From Azospirillum cavernae (lineage in GTDB: Bacteria > Pseudomonadota > Alphaproteobacteria > Azospirillales > Azospirillaceae), in the NCBI RefSeq assembly GCF_003590795.1, contig NZ_QYUL01000001.1, positions 1,629,001 to 1,693,000 of the forward strand: 64,000 bases of DNA. The letters are read 5' to 3'. Shown piece by piece: positions 22,043-34,993 of the stretch (position 1 is the stretch's first letter; every line of letters begins with the position of its first letter). A model generated the notes under the pieces. It had not been told where the DNA came from. It searched no databases and saw only the letters and a list, made by a program, of their open reading frames with translations. The translations under genes and the position numbers were made by a program.

Positions 22043-23659
22043 ATGGGCAAGATTCTGGTGGTCGATGACGAGCGGGATGTGGAGGCGCTGATTATGCAGC
22101 GCTTCCGCCGCGCCGTCCGTGCGGGAGAGTTGGAGTTCCTCTTCGCCCACAACGGGCAGGAGGCGTTGGCGACGTTGCGCGCCGAACCCGACATCGACAT
22201 GGTGTTGAGCGACATCAACATGCCCGGCATGGATGGCCTGACCCTGCTGGACCATTTGCCGCAGGTGAACGCCGACATCCGCGCCGTGATGGTCTCGGCC
22301 TATGGCGATTTGGGCAATGTTCGGGCCGCGATGAATCGCGGCGCCTTCGACTTCATCATCAAGCCCATTGATTTCGCCGACCTCGAAGCCACCATCCACA
22401 AGACGCTGGACGCCTGCAAGACGGTGCGCAAACTGCGCGACGCCTTGCAGGAAACCCGCACGGCGGAAGCCGCGTCGCGCGCGCAAGCCGCCCGGTTGCG
22501 CCGCGTGCTCGACACCAGCCCAATCGGCGTGTCGATCCTGACCGAAGCCGGGGAGCTTCTCTACAGCAACCAGCGCTGCGTCGAACTGTTCGGCGCCACG
22601 CCCGACTCCATGCGCCAGCGCGGGGCCGACGCCCTGTTCCGCCATGTCGAGGACCGCGACCGCCCGGCCAATCGGACCCGCGACGGCGAGGCGATCCGCA
22701 ACGACGAAATTCATTTCGTCCGCGACGACGGCCGCACGGTCTGGATGATTATGTCCTTCGACCACACCGTCTATGAAGGGCGCGCCGTTTACATCGTCTG
22801 GCTCTACGACATCACCGAACGCAAGGTCCAGGCCGAGGCGCTGCGCAGCGCCAAGGAAGCGGCGGAAAAGGCGTTGAGCGATCTGGAACGCATGCAAAGC
22901 GACCTGATCCGCGCGGAAAAGATGGCCGTGATCGGTGAATTGATCGCCGCCGTGGCGCACGAGATCAACACGCCGGTCGGCATCGCGCTGACCGCCGCCA
23001 CCCATCTGCAAAATGTTTCCGAGGCGATCATCCTGACCTTCAACGGCGGGCTGCTCCGCAAAAGCGACTTTCAGGAGTATGTCGGCACCGCCAGCGAGGT
23101 GTCGGGCCTGCTGGTGTCCAACATCGAACGCGCGGCGGCCCTGGTGCAAAGCCTGAAGCTGGTGACGGAGGGCAAAGCGTCGTCGCCGCGCAGCCGCTTC
23201 GACCTGCGCGAATATCTGTCCGACATCATCCTGGCGGTGCGCGTTCAACCCGCCGCCATCGGTCATGATCTGCGGCTGGAATGCCCGGACGGTCTGGTTC
23301 TGGACACCTACCCCGGCGCGCTGACCGAGGTGTTGATCGCCCTGTTGACCAACGCCTTCGCCCACGCCTTCGACCCCGACCATCATCCAGGCGGTCACGT
23401 GGCCGTGACCGCCCGCCTGTTGAGCGATGAGCGGGTGGAGTTGCGGGTGTCCGACAATGGGCGCGGCATCCCAACGGAAATCCTGCCGCGCTTGTTCCAG
23501 CCCTTCGCCACGACCCGGCGCGGCGCGGGCAGCATGGGGTTGGGCTTGTACGCCGTGTTCAATCTGGTGACGGGCAAGCTGGCGGGGGAAATCAACATCG
23601 ACAGCGCGTCTGATTGTGGGACGTCCGTCATCCTCCGCCTGCCGCTCGACGCGCCTTAG
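22043..23659 (+). CDS. Hybrid sensor: receiver-PAS-histidine kinase
   Basis: 538 residues, soluble. An N-terminal receiver (ILVVDDERD, phospho-acceptor in MVLSDINMPGMDGL, lysine in FIIKPID) is followed by a coiled coil, a PAS domain (~155-270, LDTSPIGVSILTEAGELLYSN) and a second coiled coil. Then come HisKA with AVAHEINTPVGIAL and a HATPase with LTNAFAHAF, VSDNGRGIP and GSMGLGLYAV. The receiver-first order indicates it is controlled by another kinase. The next locus encodes another PAS kinase plus a receiver with a nearly identical SDINMPG motif, so the two loci may be paralogous or one pathway. Confidence 0.92.
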   Translation: MGKILVVDDERDVEALIMQRFRRAVRAGELEFLFAHNGQEALATLRAEPDIDMVLSDINMPGMDGLTLLDHLPQVNADIRAVMVSAYGDLGNVRAAMNRGAFDFIIKPIDFADLEATIHKTLDACKTVRKLRDALQETRTAEAASRAQAARLRRVLDTSPIGVSILTEAGELLYSNQRCVELFGATPDSMRQRGADALFRHVEDRDRPANRTRDGEAIRNDEIHFVRDDGRTVWMIMSFDHTVYEGRAVYIVWLYDITERKVQAEALRSAKEAAEKALSDLERMQSDLIRAEKMAVIGELIAAVAHEINTPVGIALTAATHLQNVSEAIILTFNGGLLRKSDFQEYVGTASEVSGLLVSNIERAAALVQSLKLVTEGKASSPRSRFDLREYLSDIILAVRVQPAAIGHDLRLECPDGLVLDTYPGALTEVLIALLTNAFAHAFDPDHHPGGHVAVTARLLSDERVELRVSDNGRGIPTEILPRLFQPFATTRRGAGSMGLGLYAVFNLVTGKLAGEINIDSASDCGTSVILRLPLDAP

Positions 23660-23680
23660 AGCCGATTCATCAAAGCCTAA

Positions 23681-23793
23681 GCAGGTTTCTCCAGATCGGG
23701 CCACACATGGCCCGGCCTGGAGAAACCTGCGGACTCTCTGTTTTGCAGGTTTTCCGAGCCTGCCCATGTGTGGGCAGAGTTCGGAAAACCTGC
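23681..23793. repeat. Inverted pair of long structured hairpin repeats
   Basis: Hairpin 1 (23681-23730): GCAGGTTTCTCCAG pairs with CTGGAGAAACCTGC, enclosing GGGCCACACATGGCCC. Hairpin 2 (23745-23793): GCAGGTTTTCCGA pairs with TCGGAAAACCTGC, enclosing CTGCCCATGTGTGGGCAG. The reverse complement of hairpin 2 reads like a diverged copy of hairpin 1 in which stem differences are compensated on both arms. This suggests a REP-type element pair or structured RNA. It lies between two kinase genes. Confidence 0.75.
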
Positions 23794-23913
23794 TTGCGGA
23801 TCGCACAGGCTTTTCACCCGCTTGCTCGAACGCGCCTCGCCGTCCTGATTGCATCGCCGCCGTCCCTGCACAACAATGACCGAACACAAACGGCATCGGG
23901 ACACAGCACGGCC

Positions 23914-25629
23914 ATGAACGCTCCTGACCACAGCGGCGAGCACCTTCTGGACGGCACCATCGATCCCCCCGTCACGGTGGAGGGCACGCTCGACAGCGCC
24001 CGACTCTACCGCGATCAGGTCATGTCGATCATGCCCGGCCTGCTGGTCCATCGCGGCGAGGACATCCTCCATTGCAACGAGGGGCTGGCCCATCTGCTGG
24101 GCTATCTTGCCCCCGACGATGTGCTGGTTCTGCCCAGCGTGATGCGGCTTGTGCCCGACGACGCCCTCTTCTCCGAGCGTCAGGCCTATGACCAATGCCT
24201 GTCCGGCCTGACGCGCGCCGACGTCCGACGCACCAAGCGGCGGCGCGCCGACAACAGCGTCCAGTGGTTCGATCAGGTGCTGGAGCCGATTGATTGGGGC
24301 GGAAAGCCGGCGGTGATGGAGATGCTGGCGCAAGTGCGCCCCCACATCGGCTTCACCGAATTGCCGCATCAATGGCAACGGCTCCAGGCCGCCATCGACG
24401 CGATGCCGAACGGCGTCCTGATGCTCGACCGTGAAGGCCGGATGGAAGGGTTGAACAGCGAGTTGCTGCGTCTGTGGGACTATCCCCCCGGCCTGTTCCC
24501 ACCCGGCACGCCGATGGACGTCATGCTGCGCTACAACCACCAGCGCGGCGATTACGGCGATTGCACCGAGGATGATAAAATCTCGGAAATCCGCAAGTTG
24601 TTCCAGGTCAAGGGCGTCATCAATTCAGAGCGCCGGGTTCCCAGCGGACGCGTTTTGGACATCCGCACCGCGCCGCGCGCCGACGGCGGCATCGTCGTCA
24701 CCCATGTTGACATCACCGAACGCAAACGAATCGAAGACGAGCTGCGCGAAGCCAAGGAGCGCGCCGAATCCATTCTGGAAGAGCTGCGCGACACGCAGCA
24801 GCAACTGATTGTTCAGGAAAAAATGGCCTCCCTGGGCCAGCTCACCGCCGGGATCGCCCATGAACTGAAAAACCCCCTGAACTTCGTCAACAATTTCGCT
24901 GAACTGACCAGCGAATTGCTGGATGAACTGCTGAGTTTGCTCGGCCCATTGGACAATCGGCTCGACCAGGACGCCCAGGCCGAGGCCAAGGATCTGGTGT
25001 CGAGTCTGCACAGCAACTTGCGCAAGATCGCCGACCATGGCCGTCGCGCCGACAACATCGTCAAAAGCATGCTGGCCCATTCACGCGGCGGCGGCGGCGA
25101 ATGGCAGCGCACCGACGTGAATCCACTGGTCGAAGAGGCTCTGGCCCTGGCCTATCACGCGGTGCGCGCCCAGGATCGCGAGTTCAACACCAGTTTTATC
25201 CGCCATTACGATCCAAACGTCGGCGAGGTGAAAATCGTTCCCCCGGACATTTCCCGCGTTCTGGTCAATCTGTTCACCAACTCCTTCTATGCGGTGCGCA
25301 AACGTCAGCAAGCCGAAGCAGACCCCAACTATCACCCCACGCTCACCATAGCGACGTCTGATTGCGGCGACAAAATAGAAATTCGCGTTCGTGATAATGG
25401 CGTCGGGATGTCACAGGCGGTAATTGCGAAACTCTTCACGCCATTCTTCACAACCAAGCCAACAGGAGAAGGAACAGGCTTAGGACTTTCGCTCAGCTAT
25501 GACATCGTGGTACATCAACATAGGGGTCGCTTTGACGTTGCCAGCGTTGAGAACGACCACGCAGAGTTCACGATCACGCTGCCACGCGCCATTCCGGCGG
25601 TGTCGCTAGGGGAGCGCCGCAAGCCATGA
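23914..25629 (+). CDS. PAS-containing sensor histidine kinase
   Basis: 571 residues without membrane helices. Two PAS-like regions (about 30-140, VMSIMPGLLVHRGEDILHCNEGLAHLLGY; 160-275, LQAAIDAMPNGVLMLDREGRMEGLN ending HVDITERKR) are followed by a coiled coil, HisKA with GIAHELKNPLNFVNNF and HATPase with NLFTNSFYAV, DNGVGMS and GEGTGLGLSLSYDI. Its stop overlaps the start of a receiver gene (ATGA), its obvious partner. Around 25330-25560 the base composition becomes visibly less GC-rich than in the rest of the gene. ATG 23914 was chosen; longer frames run through the hairpin pair upstream. Confidence 0.92.
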   Translation: MNAPDHSGEHLLDGTIDPPVTVEGTLDSARLYRDQVMSIMPGLLVHRGEDILHCNEGLAHLLGYLAPDDVLVLPSVMRLVPDDALFSERQAYDQCLSGLTRADVRRTKRRRADNSVQWFDQVLEPIDWGGKPAVMEMLAQVRPHIGFTELPHQWQRLQAAIDAMPNGVLMLDREGRMEGLNSELLRLWDYPPGLFPPGTPMDVMLRYNHQRGDYGDCTEDDKISEIRKLFQVKGVINSERRVPSGRVLDIRTAPRADGGIVVTHVDITERKRIEDELREAKERAESILEELRDTQQQLIVQEKMASLGQLTAGIAHELKNPLNFVNNFAELTSELLDELLSLLGPLDNRLDQDAQAEAKDLVSSLHSNLRKIADHGRRADNIVKSMLAHSRGGGGEWQRTDVNPLVEEALALAYHAVRAQDREFNTSFIRHYDPNVGEVKIVPPDISRVLVNLFTNSFYAVRKRQQAEADPNYHPTLTIATSDCGDKIEIRVRDNGVGMSQAVIAKLFTPFFTTKPTGEGTGLGLSLSYDIVVHQHRGRFDVASVENDHAEFTITLPRAIPAVSLGERRKP

Positions 25630-26021
25630 CCCTGGGTATTCTTGTCGTTGACGACGAACCCGACATCGAAGATTTGTTCCGGCAACGTTTCCGTGCGGAG
25701 CTGCGCAGCGGGCAGGTGGCCTTCCATTTCGCCGCATCCGCCGAGCAGGCCTTGGAAGCGTTGGACGTCGGTCTGACCCCGGAAACCTTCCTGGTGCTCA
25801 GCGACATCAACATGCCCGGCATGAGCGGGCTGGATCTGCTCCAACGGCTGCGCGCGCAGACGCCAGAGGTTCCGGTCATCATGGTGACGGCCTATGGCGA
25901 CATCGAAAACCGCCGCCGCGCGCTTGACAACGGCGCCACCAATCTGGTGACGAAGCCGGTGGATTTCACCGAATTGAAAAAGCTGGTGAACTCGATCATC
26001 GCTGACAAGCAGGCCGCGTAA
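25626..26021 (+). CDS. Single-domain response regulator
   Basis: 131 residues, a single receiver: ILVVDDEPDIEDLF, phospho-acceptor aspartate in VLSDINMPGMSGL, VIMVTAYGD and NLVTKPVDF. No output domain. The start overlaps the kinase stop by four bases, so the pair is cotranscribed and likely cognate. It resembles the receiver of the 22043-23659 hybrid (shared QRFR..., SDINMPG, AYGD motifs), suggesting duplication. Confidence 0.93.
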   Translation: MTLGILVVDDEPDIEDLFRQRFRAELRSGQVAFHFAASAEQALEALDVGLTPETFLVLSDINMPGMSGLDLLQRLRAQTPEVPVIMVTAYGDIENRRRALDNGATNLVTKPVDFTELKKLVNSIIADKQAA

Positions 26022-26062: not shown

Positions 26063-27220
26063 TCACACCCCGCAGACCGCCGCCAGATCGGTCAAAGCGA
26101 CCGACGCGCCCGGCCCGCAAGACGGGCATTCGGGATCGACCGGAACGGCGATCTCGTTGAATTCGCCGCGCAGACCGTCATACAGCAGCAGACGCCCGGC
26201 CAGCGGTTCGCCCAGCCCCAGCAACAGCTTGATCGTTTCCGCCGCCATGATCGTGCCGATCACGCCCGGCAACACCCCCAACACGCCCGCTTCCGCGCAG
26301 GATGGCGCGTATTCCGCCGGGGGCGGTTCGGGAAACAGGCAGCGGTAGCAAGGGCGCGCGCCCGGCGTCGCGCCGCCGAACACCGACACCTGCCCCTCAA
26401 AGCGGAAAATCGCCCCATAGACATTGGGAACGCCCAACGTCACGCAAGCGTCGTTGACCAGATAGCGCGTCGGCAGATTGTCCGACCCATCCACCACCAC
26501 GTCGTGACCGCCCAGCAAATCGAGGACGTTGCCAGCCTCCAGCCGGGTGTCGTGCGCCACCACCTCGATGGTCGGGTTGAGGTCGAGCAGAGCCGCCCGC
26601 CCGCTGTCCACCTTGCGTTGGCCCAGACGGCTTTCGGCGTGCAGGATCTGCCGTTGCAGATTGCTGCGCTCCACCTTGTCGTCGTCAATCAGGGTCAGAC
26701 GACCGACCCCGGCCGCCGCCAAATACAAGGCGATGGGCGACCCCAGCCCGCCAGCGCCAATCAGGGCGACGCGGCTGCGCAACAGACGGTGCTGACCGGC
26801 TTCACCGACCTCCGGCATGGTCAAATGGCGGCGGTAGCGCTCGCGCTGGGCCGCGTCGAGTTGCGGCGGCGTCTCCACCGGCAGGCCCGCCGCCTTCCAG
26901 GCGGAAAAGCCCCCGGCGAGCGACCGGACATCGCCGTAGCCCAACCGCGTCAAATCCTCCGCCGCGAACAGCGACCGCGCGCCACCGGCGCACATCAGCA
27001 CCAAGGTCCGGCTGGCGTCGGGCGCTTTCTCCTCGATCCGCAATTCCAGGAAGCCGCGCGGCAGGCGCACCGCCGCCACCGGACTGCCCGTCGCCGTCTC
27101 CTCATCCTCGCGGACGTCGATCAGCAGGGCGCCCGCCTGTTGCAAGGCCAAAGCCTCAGCCGGGCCAACCTCTGGAACACGGGCGCGCAGCTCCGCAAGC
27201 CGCCGATCCTTCAAGCTCAT
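26063..27220 (-). CDS. Rhodanese-ThiF/MoeB fusion: E1-like sulfur-carrier activating enzyme
   Basis: 385 residues. The N-terminal rhodanese domain (~20-115) has candidate persulfide cysteine C77 in MCAGGARS. The ThiF/MoeB adenylyltransferase domain (~120-375) has GAGGLGSP at 155-162 for ATP, DDDKVERSNLQRQ, and two zinc CxxC pairs (291-294 and 365-368). Such enzymes adenylate the C-terminal glycine of a ThiS/MoaD protein and convert it to a thiocarboxylate. The ThiS-like gene ends 44 bases upstream, followed by YcaO/TfuA further up, so the target is almost certainly that carrier. AGGAGGG before ATG 27220 decides the start over an upstream GTG at 27241. No thi or moa gene is nearby. Confidence 0.92.
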   Translation of the reverse strand: MSLKDRRLAELRARVPEVGPAEALALQQAGALLIDVREDEETATGSPVAAVRLPRGFLELRIEEKAPDASRTLVLMCAGGARSLFAAEDLTRLGYGDVRSLAGGFSAWKAAGLPVETPPQLDAAQRERYRRHLTMPEVGEAGQHRLLRSRVALIGAGGLGSPIALYLAAAGVGRLTLIDDDKVERSNLQRQILHAESRLGQRKVDSGRAALLDLNPTIEVVAHDTRLEAGNVLDLLGGHDVVVDGSDNLPTRYLVNDACVTLGVPNVYGAIFRFEGQVSVFGGATPGARPCYRCLFPEPPPAEYAPSCAEAGVLGVLPGVIGTIMAAETIKLLLGLGEPLAGRLLLYDGLRGEFNEIAVPVDPECPSCGPGASVALTDLAAVCGV

Positions 27221-27264
27221 GCAACCCTCCTCACGCGCCACTGGGCCGCGTCGCCGTCACCCGA

Positions 27265-27543
27265 TCAACCGCCCGCCAGAGCGACCATCACCGTCAAGGT
27301 GGCTCCCGCTGGCAGCGGCGCGTCCAGCCCGCCCAAACGGCGCACATCCTCCCGCCCGAGATAGACATTGACGAAGCGGCGCAAATCGCCCTCCGCCGTG
27401 AACAGCCGGTCCTGGAACGTCGCTTGCCCAGCGGTCAGCGCCGACAGGGCCTCGCGCACGGTCGCGCCCGGCACCGCCACCTGGTCGCGCCCGCCGACAA
27501 AGCCGCGCAGCGGCGTCGGAATGCGGATCGTCACGTCACTCAT
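27265..27543 (-). CDS. ThiS/MoaD-like sulfur carrier protein
   Basis: 92 residues with a ubiquitin-like pattern: short strand TIRIPTPLRGFVGG, PGATVREALSALTA, and a C-terminus ending ALAGG. The terminal Gly-Gly is the site of adenylation and thiocarboxylation in this family. FVNVYLGREDVRRLGGLDAPLPAGATLTVM is the typical loop before the last strand. The start overlaps the TfuA stop by four bases. In methanogens TfuA hydrolyses thiocarboxylated ThiS to release sulfur for YcaO, so this is the likely sulfur donor of the cluster. Confidence 0.92.
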   Translation of the reverse strand: MSDVTIRIPTPLRGFVGGRDQVAVPGATVREALSALTAGQATFQDRLFTAEGDLRRFVNVYLGREDVRRLGGLDAPLPAGATLTVMVALAGG

Positions 27544-28922
27544 GCCTCGACCTCCTCCTTGCTCAACGCCGCTTCGGCTTCCTTGGCCAATTGGCGGAAC
27601 AGATCACGGACCTGCTTGGCGCGCATCAAATCAATGCGCAGATCATGGCCGTCCTTAAAGCCATACTCCTGCGCCCAAACCTCCGCCGGGGCGTCGATCC
27701 GGCATTGGGTGTTGGCCAGATGATCGGCCAGCAGATCCTCCAGCGCGCCCGGCGGCTGGCGGCTGGCGTCGCCGAAATGCAACTGCGTCACCCGGTCGAT
27801 CAAGGCCGCCTCGCTGGCGGTCTGTTCATACAAACCGCGCAGGCGCAACTCGTTCAGCACGGGTTTGGTGGTGCGGGCGAGGTAGCGGCGGGACACCAAC
27901 CAGCGCCGCATCGCCCGCTCAACCGCCAACTCCGCAATCAGCGCCGAGAATTCCGGGTCGCTCAGATCGTTGCGGCGGCACCAGTCGGCCAGCCCGACCG
28001 GGTCGACAATCCCGCGCGAGGCGCAGAAACGCTGCACCTCTTCGGTGATCTCCGCCGGTCCGGCGGCGACGCCGACGACATCGGCCAGTTGGGCGATCAA
28101 CAGCCGCCCCAGAGCCGCCGCGTTGATCTCGGCGAAGTCGGGGCGGTGCAACGCCGCGTGGCTGGCGATTTCCGACAAGGGCGCGCTGTGGCCGCCATGG
28201 GCGACGCGCCGATCCCGCTCGTACAGCACCTCGAAATAATGGGACGCGTTGAAGCTGAAGGGGGCCGGACGCGGCGCCTGATCCAACCCGCGCAGATGGG
28301 CGAGCAGCCCCTCGGCGTCCAGCCGCTTCTGGTCCACCGATCCGCTGGCGAGGAAGTCGTCCAGCCGCGCCGCCTCTTCAACCGTCAGACCGGCGTCGGC
28401 CCAAATGCGGTCGCGGGTGCGCTCCGGGAAAAAGCGCGCCTTGGCCGCCACCAGCAACCGCTCGTGCAGCGCCGCGTCGATCACCCCGGCGGCCTTCGCC
28501 GCCGCCAGACTGGCGCGCAGATTGACCAGCGGCTCCGACAGCGGAAAATAGCCGTCTTCCGCCCCAGCGTGGGCCAGCGCGACCTCGTCATCGCCCGTCA
28601 AGCGGCCCTCGACATAGTCGCGCGCCACAACGCCGAAGCCGATCATGCCAAAGGGCAAGCATTCCGCCGCCCGCAGCGCGCCCATGCTCGACGCGCCATA
28701 CACCGCGACGCCGCTGTGCAGCGCGAAGAGGATTTCCTTGTGCCACACCGACAGAGACTGCCCGAACACCCCGTCGATCAGCGCGATCGCGTCGGGCCGG
28801 TGAATCGTCATGGCGCTGAGCAGATCGGCCTGCGAGGCGGGCGGCAGATAGACCGCGTCCGGCAGAATCGCCCGCGCGTCCTCAACCGGCATGGTCGGCC
28901 CAAGAAAGACGCAAATCTTCAT
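27540..28922 (-). CDS. tfuA: TfuA-like protein (thioamidation partner of YcaO)
   Basis: 460 residues. The N-terminal ~220 residues are the TfuA core: ICVFLGPTMP, ALIDGVFGQSLSVWHKEIL (K62) and YGASSMGALRAAE (S78/S79). The serine and lysine match the hydrolase-like Ser-Lys pair described for this family. The C-terminal ~240 residues are helical and not assigned. Established work on methanogen TfuA shows it hydrolyses ThiS thiocarboxylate and strengthens YcaO binding to substrate. Start overlaps the YcaO stop and stop overlaps the ThiS start, each by four bases, so the three are tightly coupled. I see no membrane segments. Confidence 0.93.
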   Translation of the reverse strand: MKICVFLGPTMPVEDARAILPDAVYLPPASQADLLSAMTIHRPDAIALIDGVFGQSLSVWHKEILFALHSGVAVYGASSMGALRAAECLPFGMIGFGVVARDYVEGRLTGDDEVALAHAGAEDGYFPLSEPLVNLRASLAAAKAAGVIDAALHERLLVAAKARFFPERTRDRIWADAGLTVEEAARLDDFLASGSVDQKRLDAEGLLAHLRGLDQAPRPAPFSFNASHYFEVLYERDRRVAHGGHSAPLSEIASHAALHRPDFAEINAAALGRLLIAQLADVVGVAAGPAEITEEVQRFCASRGIVDPVGLADWCRRNDLSDPEFSALIAELAVERAMRRWLVSRRYLARTTKPVLNELRLRGLYEQTASEAALIDRVTQLHFGDASRQPPGALEDLLADHLANTQCRIDAPAEVWAQEYGFKDGHDLRIDLMRAKQVRDLFRQLAKEAEAALSKEEVEA

Positions 28923-30220
28923 GACGCGGCTCCCGCCTGGGTCGCGGCGTGGGTGGCGAGCGCGTTGGCGAACGCCACCGGACGGGCGCCCGGCGTGTAG
29001 AAGTCGAAACCATAGCCCTCCAGGCCGGGGACCACAACGCGGACCACGGGGATGCCCATCTCCTCCTGCGTCAGGTCAAACACCAGAACCTGCTCCACCC
29101 CACCCCGTCGCAACGCCGCCAGCAGCCGGGTGATGTCGCCCTCGAAGGTTGGGGTCGATTGGTTGGTGAAGCGCCGGGCGTCCGCCGTCGCCGGTTGGCT
29201 TTCCATCGCCGCCACCTCCGCCGCGCCGTCGGCGTTCTGGTTGCGTTGCAGATCGCGGCGAAAGAAGTCGTCGCGCGATCCGGCGATCAGCACCAGACGC
29301 GACTGCACCGATTCGGTCAGCGCCCGCGACATCGCCACCGCTGGCTCCAGATGCGTGCCATAGCCCCGATGCATGCCACTTTTGCGCACATCGCGGTCAT
29401 AGACGATGGAGAGGTAGGTGGGAACGCCCATGTCGGCGGTCAGGTCGAACAGCAACGGGCAAATGCCAGCCTCGTCAAAGCGGCGCAGCAGGTCCTGCAC
29501 CACCGGGCTGTCCACCGTGCTCAAATCCACGCGCGGCGTCGGCCAACCCAGCGCCTGGGCGGCGTAGCGCCAACAGGCGGCGGAGTCGCGCTCGATCACT
29601 TCATAGAGAGCCGAGGCGATGGCCTCCAAAACATGGTTGCCGCTGGCCAGCCCGTTGGTTCCCATGGCGTAGAAACTGCGCAGCCCCGGTCGCGCCACCG
29701 GATTGCCGAGCAGCGCCACCGACGCCCACGGCGCCGCCACCATCCGGTTGTTCATGAGATCCCAACCCCACGCCCAGAATTCCGGACGGTCGGCGCGGAA
29801 AGAACCGTTCTTGGTGCCGGGCAAACGTTCCACCGGGATTCGCGCGTCGGCGGGCAGATCGTTCCAACTCGCCTCGACATAAGGCAGGCGGATGGTTTCC
29901 GCATGATGGAACTCAATGGCCTCCATCGCGGCGGACACCGTGGCGGCGGCCAAGCTGAAGCCCTTTCCCGCGCTGCCGGACAGCGTCGGGCTGTTGGGAC
30001 GGTGGCCCAACACGGTGTGAATCCCCAGCCGGTCCAGGCCGGTCACGTCGGCCAGCCGGGTGATGCCGCAGCGGCCCAAATGGGGCGCGATGCGCGCAAG
30101 CGTCTCTTCCGGCGTCGCCGTGCGGTGGGTGCCCAGAAAGAAGCGCTTGGCGGCGCGGTGAACGGCATCGCCCAACCGGATCCCCGGCTCGGCTTGCGGC
30201 GACGTTGGGCTGTCGGTCAT
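28919..30220 (-). CDS. ycaO: YcaO-family ATP-dependent peptide backbone-modifying enzyme
   Basis: 433 residues from ATG 30220. The ATP/Mg-binding YcaO elements are present: SAAMEAIE at 96-103, EAIASALYEVIERD at 199-212 and RALTESVQSR at 299-308. YcaO proteins activate a backbone amide oxygen by phosphorylation; with TfuA the attacking nucleophile is sulfide, giving a thioamide. The N-terminal THRTATPEETLARIAPHLGRCGITRLADVT region is typical of the TfuA-linked branch. The C-terminus is not proline-rich as in azoline-forming YcaOs. It lies just downstream of a Nif11-leader precursor. A GTG start at 30280 is possible; neither start has a strong ribosome binding site. Confidence 0.93.
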   Translation of the reverse strand: MTDSPTSPQAEPGIRLGDAVHRAAKRFFLGTHRTATPEETLARIAPHLGRCGITRLADVTGLDRLGIHTVLGHRPNSPTLSGSAGKGFSLAAATVSAAMEAIEFHHAETIRLPYVEASWNDLPADARIPVERLPGTKNGSFRADRPEFWAWGWDLMNNRMVAAPWASVALLGNPVARPGLRSFYAMGTNGLASGNHVLEAIASALYEVIERDSAACWRYAAQALGWPTPRVDLSTVDSPVVQDLLRRFDEAGICPLLFDLTADMGVPTYLSIVYDRDVRKSGMHRGYGTHLEPAVAMSRALTESVQSRLVLIAGSRDDFFRRDLQRNQNADGAAEVAAMESQPATADARRFTNQSTPTFEGDITRLLAALRRGGVEQVLVFDLTQEEMGIPVVRVVVPGLEGYGFDFYTPGARPVAFANALATHAATQAGAAS

Positions 30221-30477
30221 CGGGTAAGGCAGGATCAACGACTCCGGTCGGTCGGGGATGGGGACGCGACGCCCCGGCACGATTCATGGCGTTGGCGGAC
30301 GCGACGAACGGAACAGGATGTGAGACAGGCCTATCCGCAACACCCTGTCTTATCAGGCGGTCTGGAAAAGCTCAAACAGCGCCAGAGCGTTCGGACGGAT
30401 GTGAGCGAGGGCGCGGCGCCCCGCCGGATTGGGCCGCCAGTTCCCTGGAGCCAACCCGGCGGAGCGCCGCAACACCG

Positions 30478-31155
30478 TCAGTCGACCTTCGTCGGATCGA
30501 CCGCGCCAACCGGCGCAGCGCCCGCATCCGGCGCCGGAGTCGCCGCCGCGATGCCTCCGCCCGCGATGGCTCCCGCCGCAATGGCGCCGGAAGCGATCGC
30601 GCCCGCCGCAATCGAACCAGCGGCAATCGCGCCGCCTGCGATTGAACCGGCGGCGATTTGGCCTGCCGCAATCGTGCCGCCAGCGATCTGACCCGCCGCG
30701 ATCATGCCACCAGCGATCTGACCAGCCGCAATCGAACCAGCCGCAATCGGACCACCAGCAGGCTGACCCGCCGCAATCATGCCGCCAGCGATCTGGCCCG
30801 CCGCAATCGAACCAGCGGCAATCGGACCACCAGCAGGCTGGCCCGCCGCAATCATGCCGCCAGCGATCTGGCCCGCCGCAATCGAACCAGCGGCAATCGG
30901 ACCACCAGCAGGCTGACCCGCCGCAATCATGCCTCCGGCGATCTGACCAGCCGCAATCGAACCAGCGGCAATCGGACCACCAGCAGGCTGACCCGCTGCA
31001 ATCATGCCACCGGCGATCTGACCAGCCGCAATCGAACCAGCGGCAATCGGACCACCAGCAGGCTGACCCGCTGCAATCATGCCACCGGCGATCTGGCCTG
31101 CCGCAATCGAACCAGCGGCAATCGGACCACCAGCAGGCTGACCCGCTGCAATCAT
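30478..31155 (-). CDS. C-terminal part of pentapeptide-array precursor (frame separated from leader)
   Basis: In this frame the array reads as repeated IAAGQ-PAGGP-IAAGS-IAAGQ-IAGGM units and closes with a clean non-repetitive tail (ATPAPDAGAAPVGAVDPTKVD) and stop. The frame is open further upstream to about 32010 without a start codon, because the upstream units carry ACG where these carry ATG. It is the same IAxGx frame used directly after the Nif11 leader, displaced only by small indels near 32010-32040. I therefore read it as the natural C-terminus of the precursor that starts at 32459. ATG 31155 is merely the first methionine in the array, without a ribosome binding site. Confidence 0.6.
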   Translation of the reverse strand: MIAAGQPAGGPIAAGSIAAGQIAGGMIAAGQPAGGPIAAGSIAAGQIAGGMIAAGQPAGGPIAAGSIAAGQIAGGMIAAGQPAGGPIAAGSIAAGQIAGGMIAAGQPAGGPIAAGSIAAGQIAGGMIAAGQPAGGPIAAGSIAAGQIAGGMIAAGQIAGGTIAAGQIAAGSIAGGAIAAGSIAAGAIASGAIAAGAIAGGGIAAATPAPDAGAAPVGAVDPTKVD

Positions 31156-31530
31156 GCCACCGGCGATCTGGCCTGCCGCAATCGAACCAGCGGCAATCGG
31201 ACCACCAGCAGGCTGACCCGCCGCAATCGTGCCGCCAGCGATCTGACCCGCCGCAATCGAACCAGCGGCAATCGGACCACCAGCAGGCTGACCCGCTGCA
31301 ATCGTGCCACCAGCGATCTGGCCAGCCGCAATCGAACCAGCGGCAATCGGACCACCAGCAGGCTGACCCGCTGCAATCGTGCCACCGGCGATCTGACCAG
31401 CCGCAATCGAACCAGCGGCAATCGGACCACCAGCAGGCTGACCCGCCGCAATCGTGCCTCCGGCGATCTGGCCTGCCGCAATCGAACCAGCGGCAATCGG
31501 ACCACCAGCAGGCTGACCCGCCGCAATCGT
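30690..31530 (-). repeat. 75-bp tandem repeat, eleven copies, within precursor core
   Basis: A 75-base unit recurs with the AGCAGGCTG block ending at 30765 and every 75 bases to 31515, eleven times. Each codes for five pentapeptides, IAAGQ-PAGGP-IAAGS-IAAGQ-IAGG(M/T). Copies differ mainly at third codon positions and at the M/T position. Confidence 0.9.
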
Positions 31531-32459
31531 GCCGCCAGCGATCTGACCAGCCGCAATCGTGCCGCCAGCGATCTGGCCCGCCGCAATCGTGCCACCGGCG
31601 ATCTGACCAGCCGCAATCGTGCCGCCAGCGATCTGGCCTGCCGCAATCGTGCCACCGGCGATCTGACCAGCCGCAATCGTGCCACCGGCGATCTGGCCAG
31701 CCGCAATCGTGCCGCCAGCGATCTGACCAGCCGCAATCGTGCCGCCAGCGATCTGACCAGCCGCAATCGTGCCGCCAGCGATCTGACCCGCCGCAATCGT
31801 GCCGCCAGCGATCTGACCAGCCGCAATCGTGCCGCCAGCGATCTGACCCGCCGCAATCGTGCCGCCAGCGATCTGGCCCGCCGCAATCGTGCCGCCAGCG
31901 ATCTGGCCCGCCGCAATCGTGCCGCCAGCGATCTGACCAGCCGCAATCGTGCCACCGGCGATCTGGCCAGCCGCAATCGTGCCACCGGCGATCTGACCAG
32001 CCGCAATCGTGCCACCGGCGATCTGGACCAGCCGCCAATCGTGCCGCCAGCGATCTGGCCCGCCGCAATCGTGCCGCCAGCGATCTGGCCCGCCGCAATC
32101 GTGCCGCCCGGCCAGCGATCTGGCCGCCGCTCGTGCGCCAGCGATCTGGCCGCCCGCAATCGTGCCGCAGCGATCTGGCCTGCCGCAATCGTGCCACCGG
32201 CGATCTGACCAGCCGCAATCGTGGCCGCCGTGGCGATCGATTCGGCGGCGACGCCGACGTCCACCCCACCGCTTCCATCCGTCAGGCTGCGGAACGCGTC
32301 AGCCGCCGCCGAGCGCACATCCTCCGCCCCGACCCCTTCAAAGCCGCTCTGCTCAAGCAGCGCACGCTTGCCATTGGCGTCCTGAGCGTTCAACCGATCA
32401 CGGAAATCGCTGTCGGTCGCGAGTCGCTTAATAAGATCGAGTGCCCGTTCGTTCGCCAT
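31152..32459 (-). CDS. Nif11-leader precursor with long repetitive core (frame disturbed)
   Basis: Residues 1-60 form a Nif11-type leader (ALDLIKRLATDSDFRDRLN, ALLEQSGFEGVGAEDV), then a DGSGG that could be a cleavage site, then IAAGQ/IAGGT pentapeptides from ~80. As written the frame slips at 32162-32190, returns for five or six pentapeptides (~32043-32100), then is lost at 32009-32040 into an Arg/Leu-rich out-of-phase reading (VARLRLVRS...) that stops at 31152. Corrected for a net two bases it would continue to 30478, ~659 residues. GAGGGCAGGA precedes ATG 32459. The leader is clearly homologous to that of 32881-34143, and YcaO lies downstream, so it is the likely thioamidation substrate. 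Confidence 0.75.
   Translation of the reverse strand: MANERALDLIKRLATDSDFRDRLNAQDANGKRALLEQSGFEGVGAEDVRSAAADAFRSLTDGSGGVDVGVAAESIATAATIAAGQIAGGTIAAGQIAAARLRAARSLAHERRPDRWPGGTIAAGQIAGGTIAAGQIAGGTIGGWSRSPVARLRLVRSPVARLRLARSPVARLRLVRSLAARLRRARSLAARLRRARSLAARLRRVRSLAARLRLVRSLAARLRRVRSLAARLRLVRSLAARLRLVRSLAARLRLARSPVARLRLVRSPVARLRQARSLAARLRLVRSPVARLRRARSLAARLRLVRSLAARLRRVSLLVVRLPLVRLRQARSPEARLRRVSLLVVRLPLVRLRLVRSPVARLQRVSLLVVRLPLVRLRLARSLVARLQRVSLLVVRLPLVRLRRVRSLAARLRRVSLLVVRLPLVRLRQARSPVA
31530..32220 (-). repeat. 30-bp tandem repeat, about 23 copies, within precursor core
   Basis: The 30-base unit codes for IAAGQ-IAGGT and is nearly perfect from 31530 to about 32008. Four units deviate in length: 32 bases (32009-32040), 32 (32101-32132), 29 (32133-32161) and 29 (32162-32190). 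All other units are exactly 30. Confidence 0.9.
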
Positions 32460-32880
32460 TCCTGCCCTCTTATTTTGCTTTGCCGGTGGGATAGCGGCAA
32501 TCGCGGACACTATATAAATTAAAAACAAGGCATCCTAGGAAAATTTCATCCTTAGCGCGTATATCCCTCCACCAATATCCTTGACGATAACATAAAATCC
32601 ATTATTGAGACTTGTCCGCCCTCATCACCGTCACCTCTTTATTACAAAAAGACTGCAATGCATACAGCATGAAATCAACAACATCAGACTGAACCTTGAG
32701 CGCTTCATTGAGGGTGTTTGGAAAAACAAAAGAGTGCATTAGAAGGCGATTGCAATATTTCCGCAGAGTTCCAAAGACACAAAAAATCACGAACCCCTTG
32801 ATTAATTGCAAGCAGCGAGGCTGCACGCAGCCCCGCCACCGCCATCACAAGCAAAAAACACTCGAAGATTTGGTGAATTT
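32460..32880. other. AT-rich gap between the two precursor genes
   Basis: 421 bases, markedly richer in A/T than the surroundings. On the minus strand a 74-codon frame (32602-32826, containing HSFVFPNTLNEALKVQSDVV) is open, but its GTG/ATG starts have no ribosome binding site and I recognise no family, so I do not call it. The gap probably holds the promoter of the 32459 precursor. A/T-rich stretches at 32510-32560 lie 50-100 bases upstream of that start. Confidence 0.5.
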
Positions 32881-34143
32881 TCAATTCAGAATTGGCGACT
32901 TCATGCCTTTTGACAGGCCCTCCGACGCCACCACCGCAAACGCAGCGCTGTGGTCCAGACAGTCCATCGCCTCCGGGAAACGCTCAGCCTGCTTGAGGTT
33001 CAGACGAGCGGCCAAAGCAACGCGCCGACGCGAAACGGCTTTACGCGAACCCGCCGCAGCCGAAAGCCACCGATTCGACAAGGCGCCGATCCGCGCCGCT
33101 CGCGCTTTGACCCGTTGAACCGGCGTCTGCTCTGCCGTATGGCGGCTCGCTCCAGCGACTGGCTGACCAAACGCAGCGGCGGAGGACGCAGGCTGACCAA
33201 ACGCAGCGGCGGAAGACGCAGGCTGACCAAACGCTGCGGCGGAGGACGCAGGCTGACCAAACGCAGCGGCGGAGGACGCAGGTTGACCAAACGCTGCGGC
33301 GGAGGACGCGGGCTGACCAAACGCTGCGGCGGAGGACGCGGGCTGACCAAACGCTGCGGCGGAGGACGCGGGCTGACCAAACGCGGCGGCGGAAGACGCG
33401 GGCTGACCAAACGCAGCGGCGGAGGACGCAGGCTGACCAAACGCAGCGGCGGAAGACGCAGGCTGACCAAACGCTGCGGCGGAGGACGCAGGCTGACCAA
33501 ACGCAGCGGCGGAGGACGCGGGCTGACCAAACGCTGCGGCGGAGGACGCGGGCTGACCAAACCAAGCGGCGGAGGACGCGGGCTGACCAAACCAAGCGGC
33601 GGAGGAAGCGGGCTGACCAAACGCAGCGGCGGAGGACGCAGGCTGACCAAACGCGGCGGCGGAGGACGCAGGTTGACCAAACGCAGCGGCGGAAGACGCA
33701 GGCTGACCAAACGCGGCGGCGGAAGACGCAGGCTGACCAAACCAAGCGGCGGAGGACGCGGGCTGACCAAACGCAGCGGCGGAGGACGCGGGCTGACCAA
33801 ACCAAGCGGCGGAAGACGCGGGCTGACCAAACCAAGCGGCGGAGGACGCAGGTTGACCAAACGCAGCGGCGGAGGACGCAGGTTGACCAAACGCAGCGGC
33901 GGAGGACGCGGCGGATTGCGGCGCCGTCTCACTCTGAAACTCGATTTGAGAGGTGGTCACGCCACGCTCATCGCTTGCGCCGCGAAACAGGCCCGCAGCG
34001 GCGGGAGCAATGTCGGCAGCCGTCACGCCATCAAAGCCGCTCTGCTCAAGCAGTTCACGCTTGTCTGTCAAACCGTTCAACCGATCCCGAAATTCGAGAT
34101 CCGTCGCCATCCGCTTTACAAGCTCCAGCGCAGTGAGAACCAT
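32881..34143 (-). CDS. Nif11-leader precursor with 25 FGQP decapeptide repeats
   Basis: 420 residues in one intact frame. Leader 1-55 (LELVKRMATDLEFRDRLN, LLEQSGFDGVTAADIAPAAAGLF) aligns closely with the other precursor. A linker (~56-80, ASDERGVTTSQIEFQSETAPQ) is followed by 25 units of AA(A/W)FGQPASS; five carry Trp at the third position and the last reads FGQPVAG. An 88-residue non-repetitive tail ends in KGMKSPILN. There is no cysteine in the repeats, so Cys-derived azolines are excluded; Gly, Gln and Ser backbones are candidates for thioamidation. AGGAG lies nine bases before ATG 34143. The gene is first in a minus-strand run leading to YcaO-TfuA-ThiS-ThiF. The length is far beyond ordinary RiPP precursors. 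Confidence 0.85.
   Translation of the reverse strand: MVLTALELVKRMATDLEFRDRLNGLTDKRELLEQSGFDGVTAADIAPAAAGLFRGASDERGVTTSQIEFQSETAPQSAASSAAAFGQPASSAAAFGQPASSAAWFGQPASSAAWFGQPASSAAAFGQPASSAAWFGQPASSAAAFGQPASSAAAFGQPASSAAAFGQPASSAAAFGQPASSAAWFGQPASSAAWFGQPASSAAAFGQPASSAAAFGQPASSAAAFGQPASSAAAFGQPASSAAAFGQPASSAAAFGQPASSAAAFGQPASSAAAFGQPASSAAAFGQPASSAAAFGQPASSAAAFGQPASSAAAFGQPASSAAAFGQPVAGASRHTAEQTPVQRVKARAARIGALSNRWLSAAAGSRKAVSRRRVALAARLNLKQAERFPEAMDCLDHSAAFAVVASEGLSKGMKSPILN
33163..33905 (-). repeat. 30-bp tandem repeat, 25 copies, FGQP array
   Basis: Perfectly phased 30-base units (two per 60 bases) run across the whole stretch with no length deviation. Differences are restricted to a few synonymous sites and to GCN versus TGG at the Ala/Trp codon (TGG in five units). 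Because 30 is divisible by three, several other frames are also open; these are artefacts. Confidence 0.95.
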
Positions 34144-34438: not shown

Positions 34439-34993
34439 TTACGACCGCCCCCGACGCGCGCGCCACTCCTCACGGGTCTGCGACCAGATGTCGATTTCAA
34501 TCATCTCCAACGGAGCTGGCAGTTGCCCAATTCCCCGCAACCGGGATCCCAGCCGGGTTGCGACGGCCTGCGAGGCGATGTTGTCGGGAACGATGGAATG
34601 GATGATTTCGTCCCAACCCAGCGTGTCGAACACCCAATCAATGGCGGCGGTCGCGGCCTCGACGGCGTAACCCCGCCCCCATCGGTTGCGCTCTATGGCC
34701 CATCCAACCTCGCTGCCGGGCCACCCCTCGGGCATCCACGGCCCAACGCGCCCAATCCAGTCGCCGGACTCTTTCTCGATCACCGAAAACATGCCGAATC
34801 CCTGAATGGTCCAGGCCCCCGCCATGGTCAGAAAGCCCCGCCACGCCACCGAGCGCTCTTGCAAACCGCCAATGAATTTCGTGGTTTCATCGTCCGCCAT
34901 CATCGCGGCCCACCCCTCGAAATCCTCCGCCTCCGTCGGGCGCAGAATCAACCGGGGCGTTTCCAGCACCACATTGCGCAAAACTTTCACCAT
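34439..34993 (-). CDS. GNAT-family N-acetyltransferase (RimJ/RimL-like)
   Basis: 184 residues. It opens with LETPRLILRPTEAEDFEGWAAMM, typical of the RimJ/RimL branch. The acetyl-CoA loop is the degenerate RNRWGRGYAVEAATAAIDWVF (QxxGxG/A-type), and IHSIVPDNIASQAVATRLGSR is the conserved late helix-strand segment. These enzymes acetylate N-terminal or side-chain amines. It lies on the same strand, 295 bases upstream of the repeat-precursor operon; a role in that system is conceivable but unsupported. Confidence 0.88.
   Translation of the reverse strand: MVKVLRNVVLETPRLILRPTEAEDFEGWAAMMADDETTKFIGGLQERSVAWRGFLTMAGAWTIQGFGMFSVIEKESGDWIGRVGPWMPEGWPGSEVGWAIERNRWGRGYAVEAATAAIDWVFDTLGWDEIIHSIVPDNIASQAVATRLGSRLRGIGQLPAPLEMIEIDIWSQTREEWRARRGRS

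Follow-up and report, generated by a model that had tools for sequence, protein, structure and literature searches.

We propose that six minus-strand genes in the window, i.e., the whole stretch of 64,000 nucleotides analysed here, constitute a RiPP-type operon in which long repeat proteins would be thioamidated at many sites under the guidance of their leaders, with sulfur supplied by a ThiS-TfuA relay, a reading to which we assign a probability of roughly 0.6. Azospirillum are soil and plant-associated bacteria, and enzymes of the YcaO-TfuA type swap a backbone oxygen for sulfur. The parts of the operon are of known kinds, and the novelty resides in its variable repeat cores of protein size; we found no paper on such cores in the open literature, subscription papers being mostly outside this coverage. 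The features of the locus are as follows.

32881-34143, minus strand: precursor 1, 420 aa, intact frame
33910..34143, minus strand: precursor 1 leader (residues 1-78), divergent Nif11-like, with no Pfam or NCBIfam leader match of its own
33160..33909, minus strand: precursor 1 core (residues 79-328), 25 tandem decapeptides ASSAA[AW]FGQP (Tandem Repeats Finder)
32884..33159, minus strand: precursor 1 C-terminal tail (residues 329-420, 92 aa), predicted helical with low confidence
32220..32459, minus strand: precursor 2 leader, 80 aa from ATG at 32459, Nif11-like below cut-off, with ES[IV]A border motif
32023..32174, minus strand: cluster of small indels breaking the precursor 2 frame in GCF_003590795.1
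30553..32022, minus strand: precursor 2 core, 98 in-phase pentapeptides, stop at 30478-30480
28919..30220, minus strand: YcaO (Pfam YcaO), 433 aa from ATG
27540..28922, minus strand: TfuA, 460 aa, N-terminal TfuA domain and helical C-terminal domain of ~240 aa
27265..27543, minus strand: ThiS-like sulfur carrier (Pfam ThiS), 92 aa, GG end
26063..27220, minus strand: rhodanese-ThiF/MoeB-type E1 from ATG, alternative GTG start at 27241
25626..26021, plus strand: single-domain response regulator, convergent to the operon, co-present in the same 24 genomes
22043..25629, plus strand: pair of histidine kinase genes, one receiver-PAS-kinase and one PAS-kinase, lying upstream of the regulator gene

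The operon runs in the order precursor 1, precursor 2, YcaO, TfuA, ThiS and rhodanese-ThiF E1, and the four enzyme genes are open frames. Coordinates read for each gene bear out the claim of the first-pass annotation that all six lie on the minus strand, and the 4-base overlaps that it had reported at YcaO/TfuA and TfuA/ThiS are both present. The linkage of leader-repeat proteins with YcaO-TfuA-ThiS, whose absence from related genomes would by its account have refuted the proposal, likewise holds: the leader, YcaO, TfuA, ThiS and response regulator share one distribution, occurring together in 24 of the 45 Azospirillum genomes. These 24 form the positive set among 82 genomes of the family and have YcaO sequences at least 69% identical, the locus-type YcaO being missing from the other 21 of the genus. 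The conserved set, carried by 24 species, includes either one or two repeat proteins, built largely from short Ala-rich units. In 15 of the 24 positives, one contig carries both YcaO and a leader gene upstream of it, and the other nine assemblies are broken at the repeats. The E1 is present in 22 of 24; a locus-type E1 is missing in two genomes (G029 and G044), an observation that counts against our reading. The positives are explained by only two gains or losses on the glyS tree, so the co-occurrence rests on few independent events, and this too weighs against it. Kinase matches were found beside the operon in 21 of the 23 loci read, and the response regulator and kinase genes are candidate, albeit unproven, partners of the operon. 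A GNAT acetyltransferase gene (34439-34993) was rejected as a part of the system: a copy at least 65% identical is present in 20 of 24 positives but also in three of 21 negatives, it lies on a different contig from the operon in two genomes (G003 and G012), and in three negatives (L176-L178) its neighbourhood yielded no gene of the operon.

Loci with the same leader type upstream of YcaO, 48-52% identical, are also seen in an actinomycetotal genome (L104), Sphingomonas psychrolutea (L143), an alphaproteobacterial MAG (L103) and a member of the Gemmatimonadetes (L100). Unlike those of Azospirillum, these outgroup loci encode short cores, Thr/Ala-rich in three of the four (such as TVTASASAAVAT), and contain two YcaO genes. 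L103 has an additional DUF4135 protein, presumably LanM-like. TfuA has no match within the stretch of the L143 locus that was examined, a further point against the proposed system.

Tandem Repeats Finder, with a threshold of 50, gives the two repeat arrays scores of 1211 and 1510. Among the 25 units of precursor 1, the variable position is A in 20 and W in five, while the units of precursor 2 include IAAGQ, IAGGT, IAAGS, PAGGP and IAGGM, among others. A long tandem-repeat core had been described after each leader; this stands for precursor 1 but not in full for precursor 2, which is not one open frame in the assembly, its leader frame being lost within the indels at 32023-32174 and no stop interrupting the 98 in-phase units that follow. 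The broken frame counts against our reading; open full-length homologues of precursor 2 are present in other species. Repeats within a gene are held at the protein level. With a frame-blind choice of unit pairs in the 15 arrays that have a clear period, the pooled between-unit pN/pS is 0.19 in frame as compared to 2.8-3.0 out of frame, and the true frame gives the lowest ratio in 14 of 15 arrays, the count stopping at 14 because one wrong-frame ratio is undefined in one array. For precursor 1 the ratio is 0.16 in frame versus 3.3 and 20.8 out of frame, and in precursor 2 all 14 differences over the five unit pairs compared fall at third codon positions. The leaders are conserved and the cores vary widely among species groups, which have composition in common but not unit sequence. 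A search for a shared modification motif used 23 of 34 collected sequences, window precursor 1 among them, and set aside eight precursors of the second type along with three short pieces. Only PA and AA recur three times or more in every one of the 23 cores, a recurrence that could come from Ala-rich composition alone, and the want of any other core-wide motif speaks against the reading; the G026 precursor escaped the core pattern and is outside every core count. A single-sequence AlphaFold model of precursor 1 (mean pLDDT 39, about 30 in the core) reaches 69-78 in the ten-residue blocks of the first 30 residues alone and 70 in a single block of the tail, and was not taken as support for a fold.

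The leaders had been called obviously Nif11-type, and this needs qualification. The precursor 2 leader scores 16.9 bits against Pfam PF07862 (cut-off 23.8) and 20.6-21.9 bits against NCBIfam TIGR03798 (cut-off 32.3), its match to the latter stopping at profile position 53 of 68, and the precursor 1 leader has no leader-family match in Pfam or NCBIfam. TIGR03798 is matched at E<=0.01 by 12 of 25 leaders (best E 1.5e-4), and just four of the 25 aligned leaders, that of window precursor 2 among them, have a GG dipeptide from residue 50 onwards, so the GG motif is not conserved. What stands is a profile relation: an HMM of the Azospirillum leaders retrieves two ORFs of L100 (7.7e-13 and 1.2e-12), one of which scores 56.4 bits on TIGR03798, above the cut-off of 32.3. 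The motif ES[IV]A marks the leader-core border in 23 of 23 main-type precursors. A protein database search with the L051 leader region gave 354 candidates and none at E<=0.01, which says nothing on absence since close leaders exist in genomes. Similarly, a class-wide leader search, with at most 15 candidates scored per genome, found two of 385 genomes at E<=1e-6, both Azospirillum. This result does not speak against relatives in other groups, the outgroup loci being examples.

YcaO (245.9 bits, cut-off 25.7) and TfuA (141.1 bits, cut-off 30) are adjacent and both exceed their curated Pfam cut-offs, and a precursor with leader and core lies beside them; both features are expected of a YcaO-TfuA RiPP locus. 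TfuA also has the fold of the structurally solved thioamidation TfuA. No solved-structure relative is listed for its C-terminal domain (residues 217-460), a region barely covered by the search, and a weak SurA_N_3 match there in six of 39 members is a lead only. The ThiS protein (26.9 bits, cut-off 22.5) ends in GG in all 24 positive genomes, the E1 is of the MoeB/rhodanese type (579.8 bits, cut-off 449), and the rhodanese Cys and CxxC motifs are present in 21 of 21 E1 sequences read; we take the GG end, the Cys and the CxxC to be relay motifs. Archaeal TfuA and ThiS are reportedly the subject of one published study. The equivalog models for McrA-glycine thioamidation (TIGR03266 and NF033432) are missed by both enzymes (YcaO 208 of 365 and TfuA 187 of 235.2 bits), and these misses count against our reading.

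From these features we infer leader recognition, the chemistry, the modified sites and the number of thioamides. Recognition of the repeat proteins by the YcaO-TfuA pair likely goes through their conserved leaders, and many backbone amides along the Ala-, Gly-, Ser- and Pro-rich repeats are predicted to become thioamides. Sulfur would pass from the rhodanese domain to the E1 and on to the C-terminal glycine of ThiS, where it would form a thiocarboxylate that TfuA hydrolyses in the vicinity of YcaO, with YcaO activating each amide in an ATP-dependent manner.

The same chemistry could have a different outcome if the thioamidated repeats were cut unit by unit, making each protein a multicore precursor of a small, species-specific thioamide peptide. 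Thiovarsolin precursors, with up to five repeats, yield N-acetyl-APR tripeptides (PMC6511847), units alike at the protein level within a gene and unlike between species groups are as expected of species-specific peptides, and the leader might be removed with the help of the ES[IV]A motif at its border. We nevertheless regard this fate as doubtful, given that no protease or transporter gene was seen among the operon genes (overlapping shadow ORFs being outside the family search), the leaders lack a conserved GG site, charged residues make up only 0-3% of main-type cores, leaving few trypsin-like sites, and the unit lengths (5, 9, 10, 15, 18, 20, 25, 29 or 44 residues) have no visibly common boundary. 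A product that stays long is slightly favoured over small peptides, because the operon has no protease or transporter gene, the GG is not conserved and composition but not unit sequence is shared; against an uncut chain, ES[IV]A could be a cutting site. More specifically, and only tentatively, we suggest uncut, protein-sized poly-thioamides in which a core of 100 to >400 residues would carry dozens of sulfurs in its backbone. Their repeat sequence would change from one lineage to the next at a constant composition, and their function may be a bulk property, be it binding of soft metals, resistance to proteases or self-assembly, under the control of the co-inherited kinases and response regulator.

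Three further explanations were considered. The repeat proteins might be unmodified surface or storage proteins, with YcaO-TfuA-ThiS-E1 acting on another protein, in the way that YcaO modifies ribosomal protein uL16; folded proteins can be YcaO substrates (PMC13063428), and the missed Nif11 cut-offs fit such a separation. We consider this unlikely in view of the leader genes that precede YcaO in Azospirillum (on one contig in 15 of 24 genomes) and in the four short-core outgroup loci, and of the identical presence pattern; further, the uL16 study describes TfuA as not encoded near suspected uL16-type YcaOs (PMC13063428). It is more improbable still that YcaO uses Ser, Thr or another nucleophile to form azolines or amidines with the E1 as cyclodehydratase partner. 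For Azospirillum sp. B510, Haft et al. (2010) place a docking scaffold and a cyclodehydratase three ORFs apart, listing AZL_022710 and AZL_022680 (PMC2887384), which by gene order are probably this YcaO and E1. However, TfuA and a GG-ended ThiS accompany YcaO in 24 of 24 genomes, the E1 is of the MoeB/rhodanese type and missing in two of them, YcaO reaches only 117.6 bits on the SagD-type model of azoline-forming TOMM YcaOs (TIGR03604, cut-off 219.25), and 62 of the 98 precursor 2 units are without Ser, Thr and Cys. Least probable of all, the locus may be decaying in the A. cavernae genome with its repeat proteins dispensable, as several indels within about 150 bases of precursor 2 and the patchy presence of the locus-type YcaO in the genus could indicate; an intact precursor 1, open enzyme genes, 98 stop-free units and the confinement of precursor 2 differences to third positions argue otherwise.

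If multi-site thioamidation is true, YcaO-TfuA would work along hundreds of residues in an iterative fashion and on units of unrelated sequence, far above the four thioamides of thiostreptamide S4. Related leaders and enzymes paired with many cores would provide a natural test of leader-only substrate recognition and a route to genetically encoded poly-thioamide proteins. It would also give a reason for the breaks of draft Azospirillum assemblies at these genes, which may be hidden from RiPP miners as a result.

Among known systems, the thiovarsolin var cluster of Streptomyces varsoviensis likewise has a YcaO-TfuA pair and a precursor with a repeated core, and its genes varA, varY and varT are enough to make a thioamide (PMC6511847). 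It differs in having up to five repeats as compared to 25 and 98 or more in the window, in the absence of a ThiS/E1 pair among its seven named genes (PMC6511847), and in its heme oxygenase (VarO), amidinotransferase and ATP-grasp, which are not among the operon genes of the window; its APR/GPR unit is absent from the window repeats, which are of the ASSAA[AW]FGQP and IAAGQ types. In the pathway of the thioamitide thiostreptamide S4, YcaO and TfuA homologues also place several thioamides iteratively, some on Ala, but the product is a small macrocyclic peptide made with extra tailoring enzymes and without repeats (PMC8153245). The NHLP/Nif11 families of Haft et al. (2010) combine a conserved leader with a hypervariable core as in Azospirillum, and the passages on the B510 pair do not mention neighbouring repeat proteins (PMC2887384). 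The first-pass annotation had taken the combination of Nif11 leader, repeat core and ThiS/E1 pair as new to it. Malit et al. (2021), however, reported Nif11-like precursors in TfuA clusters, with MoeB among the extra genes in their Figure 4 legend; their main text does not contain the word repeat or name Azospirillum (PMC8120280). Those precursors have a conserved GG cleavage motif (PMC8120280), whereas the Azospirillum cores are protein-sized repeats without it, and it is in these cores that the novelty lies.

The minus strand of the window carries, as read from the ORF list and family profiles, a series of genes for precursor 1, precursor 2, YcaO, TfuA, ThiS and a rhodanese-ThiF E1, with 4-base overlaps between YcaO and TfuA and between TfuA and ThiS, and this reading bears out the six-gene set and the overlaps proposed in the first-pass annotation. 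The closest named relatives of YcaO belong to Azospirillum (70-86% identity), and no gene for a transporter or a protease was seen within the operon on reading the ORF list. The two repeat arrays, each following a Nif11-like leader, score 1211 and 1510 in Tandem Repeats Finder. The features concerned are as follows:

32881-34143, minus strand: precursor 1, with 25 decapeptides ASSAA[AW]FGQP
ATG at 32459, minus strand: precursor 2, with 98 in-phase pentapeptides, chiefly IAAGQ, IAGGT, IAAGS and PAGGP
22043-26021, convergent to the operon: two histidine kinases with PAS domains and a regulator consisting of a lone receiver domain

Both arrays described in the first pass are present, but its claim of two long repeat proteins holds only in part, as precursor 2 is not a single frame in the assembly. 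Motif units occur in the leader frame at 32219-32175 and 32099-32040 and in a different frame at 32160-32146, and the phase is constant only from 32022 to 30553. The clustering of several indels within ~150 bases, with none in the following 1470, is consistent with either a localized sequence error or a recent scar at this spot. Full-length homologues of precursor 2 are open frames in other species.

The repeats are translated and held at the protein level. Among unit pairs picked on DNA identity alone and pooled over 15 arrays, differences at codon positions 1, 2 and 3 number 122, 95 and 549, with a pooled pN/pS of 0.185 in frame against 2.85 and 2.96 when the other two frames are read; within the precursor 2 array, all 14 differences among five unit pairs fall at third positions.

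An alignment of 25 leaders shows 11 invariant positions. Against the core of window precursor 2, none of 21 comparisons gave a 5-mer Jaccard index above 0.027, at leader identities of 60-82%. Across all 231 pairs of main-type precursors (a type that includes window precursor 2), leader identity is at least 60% in 204, and the core Jaccard index of these is below 0.02 in 116 and higher in 88; some species therefore have units in common. Composition is a feature widely common to the main-type cores, in which A, G, S, T and P make up 70-90% and D, E, K and R 0-3% of residues; the corresponding values for window precursor 1, tail included, are 69% and 6%, and charged residues reach 14% in second-type precursors. 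Complete main precursors beyond the window (n=14) span 174-505 residues. All 23 main-type precursors read (window 32220-32459 and 22 other genomes) have an ES[IV]A motif where leader and core meet, which is a candidate site for docking or cutting; the motif was not found in window precursor 1 or second-type precursors. A GG near the leader end is not general, occurring in 4 of the 25 aligned leaders. Four of the 25 leaders match the N-terminal domain model of IniB (NF038175; best E 1.5e-4), an Ala/Gly-rich mycobacterial protein.

Among 82 family genomes, of which 45 belong to the window's genus, YcaO at ≥69% identity is found in 24, all within the genus. The co-occurrence that the first pass proposed to look for is seen: the leader model matches the identical 24 of 82 (38 leaders, two apiece in 14 genomes), and full-length TfuA (≥68%) and ThiS (≥74%) match the identical 24 among the 45 genus genomes, with a weak ThiS in G017 (E 5e-8) and a second, weak one in G018. 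The regulator adjoining the operon tracks it in these 24 of the 45 genus genomes (E≤1e-40), being present in G012 though on a different contig from the operon, and kinase matches lie at 21 of 23 loci read, with none in L033 and L049 being a short contig. The E1 (≥81%) occurs in 22 of the 24; in G029 and G044 the sole copy is of the distant MoeB type that all 45 genus genomes share. The leader gene lies close to YcaO on one contig in 15 of the 24 (the window and 14 others). In seven more, the YcaO contig stops ~280-750 bases upstream of YcaO and the leader lies near the end of another contig; the remaining two, G033 and G035, have N gaps within the repeats, and the assembly of the former places the leader 0.93 Mb from YcaO on a single scaffold, that of the latter on a different contig from YcaO. 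These nine cases probably reflect assembly breaks and misjoins at repeats. A glyS tree built for the 45 genomes, however, places 23 of the positives in a single group and the remaining one, G029, on the side holding 16 negatives; two changes account for the presence pattern (bootstrap range 2-3, bootstrap not fully settled). Clade inheritance explains much of the co-occurrence, and G029, which is without the locus-type E1, is the sole clear second case.

Of 80 loci around YcaO relatives, 49 were examined (46 outside Azospirillum, plus three that are second loci within it; the remaining 31 are all Azospirillum). The leader model matched 12 ORFs here at E≤1, five of them at E≤1.8e-12 and upstream of YcaO in four loci, namely L100 (Gemmatimonadetes), L103 (an alphaproteobacterial MAG), L104 (Actinomycetota) and L143 (Sphingomonas psychrolutea), the last with no TfuA match within the stretch covered. 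The core is short and Thr/Ala-rich in L103, L104 and L143, e.g. TVTASASAAVAT, and likewise in L105, where the leader matches are weaker; Azospirillum cores of the G031 type start AASASATSASAT. We infer that tandem duplication may have enlarged a short core, with loss of the GG motif. ThiS and E1 genes also lie near YcaO-TfuA in L100, L103, L151 and L158. Between TfuA and ThiS, the L103 MAG encodes a DUF4135 protein (L103:13888-16773), presumably LanM-like, which suggests thioamide formation together with dehydration at that locus. YcaO-TfuA loci of Roseibium (L133:14064-14735) and Roseovarius (L147:5629-6312) each encode a protein with (YSGGKA)n repeats at its end; its N-terminus differs, it has no match in Pfam, and it is a candidate for a separate repeat-core type.

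We propose that the leader would be bound first and that the repeats would then be thioamidated iteratively, the sulfur plausibly passing from the rhodanese via E1 and ThiS to TfuA. Two reports (PMC8153245, PMC13063428) offer precedent for sulfur relay and iteration. TfuA residues 217-460 (window 27543-28274) are confidently modelled as a helical C-terminal domain, matched by SurA_N_3 in 6 of 39 members, and this predicted domain could possibly bind the leader or chain. The window's genome has a second YcaO-TfuA pair (G000:C5:282740-284676) with a short TfuA, a kind present in 44 of 45 genus genomes.

The combination had been put forward as unfamiliar, and we found no report of the repeat proteins in the open-access literature. 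However, Nif11-like precursors in TfuA clusters are already known from Malit et al. (PMC8120280), where a figure legend lists MoeB among extra genes. Haft et al. (PMC2887384) describe two entries of Azospirillum sp. B510 lying three ORFs apart, AZL_022710 as a docking scaffold and AZL_022680 as a cyclodehydratase. As the YcaO and E1 genes of the Azospirillum genome G021 match this order and spacing, the two B510 genes are likely the YcaO and E1 of G021.
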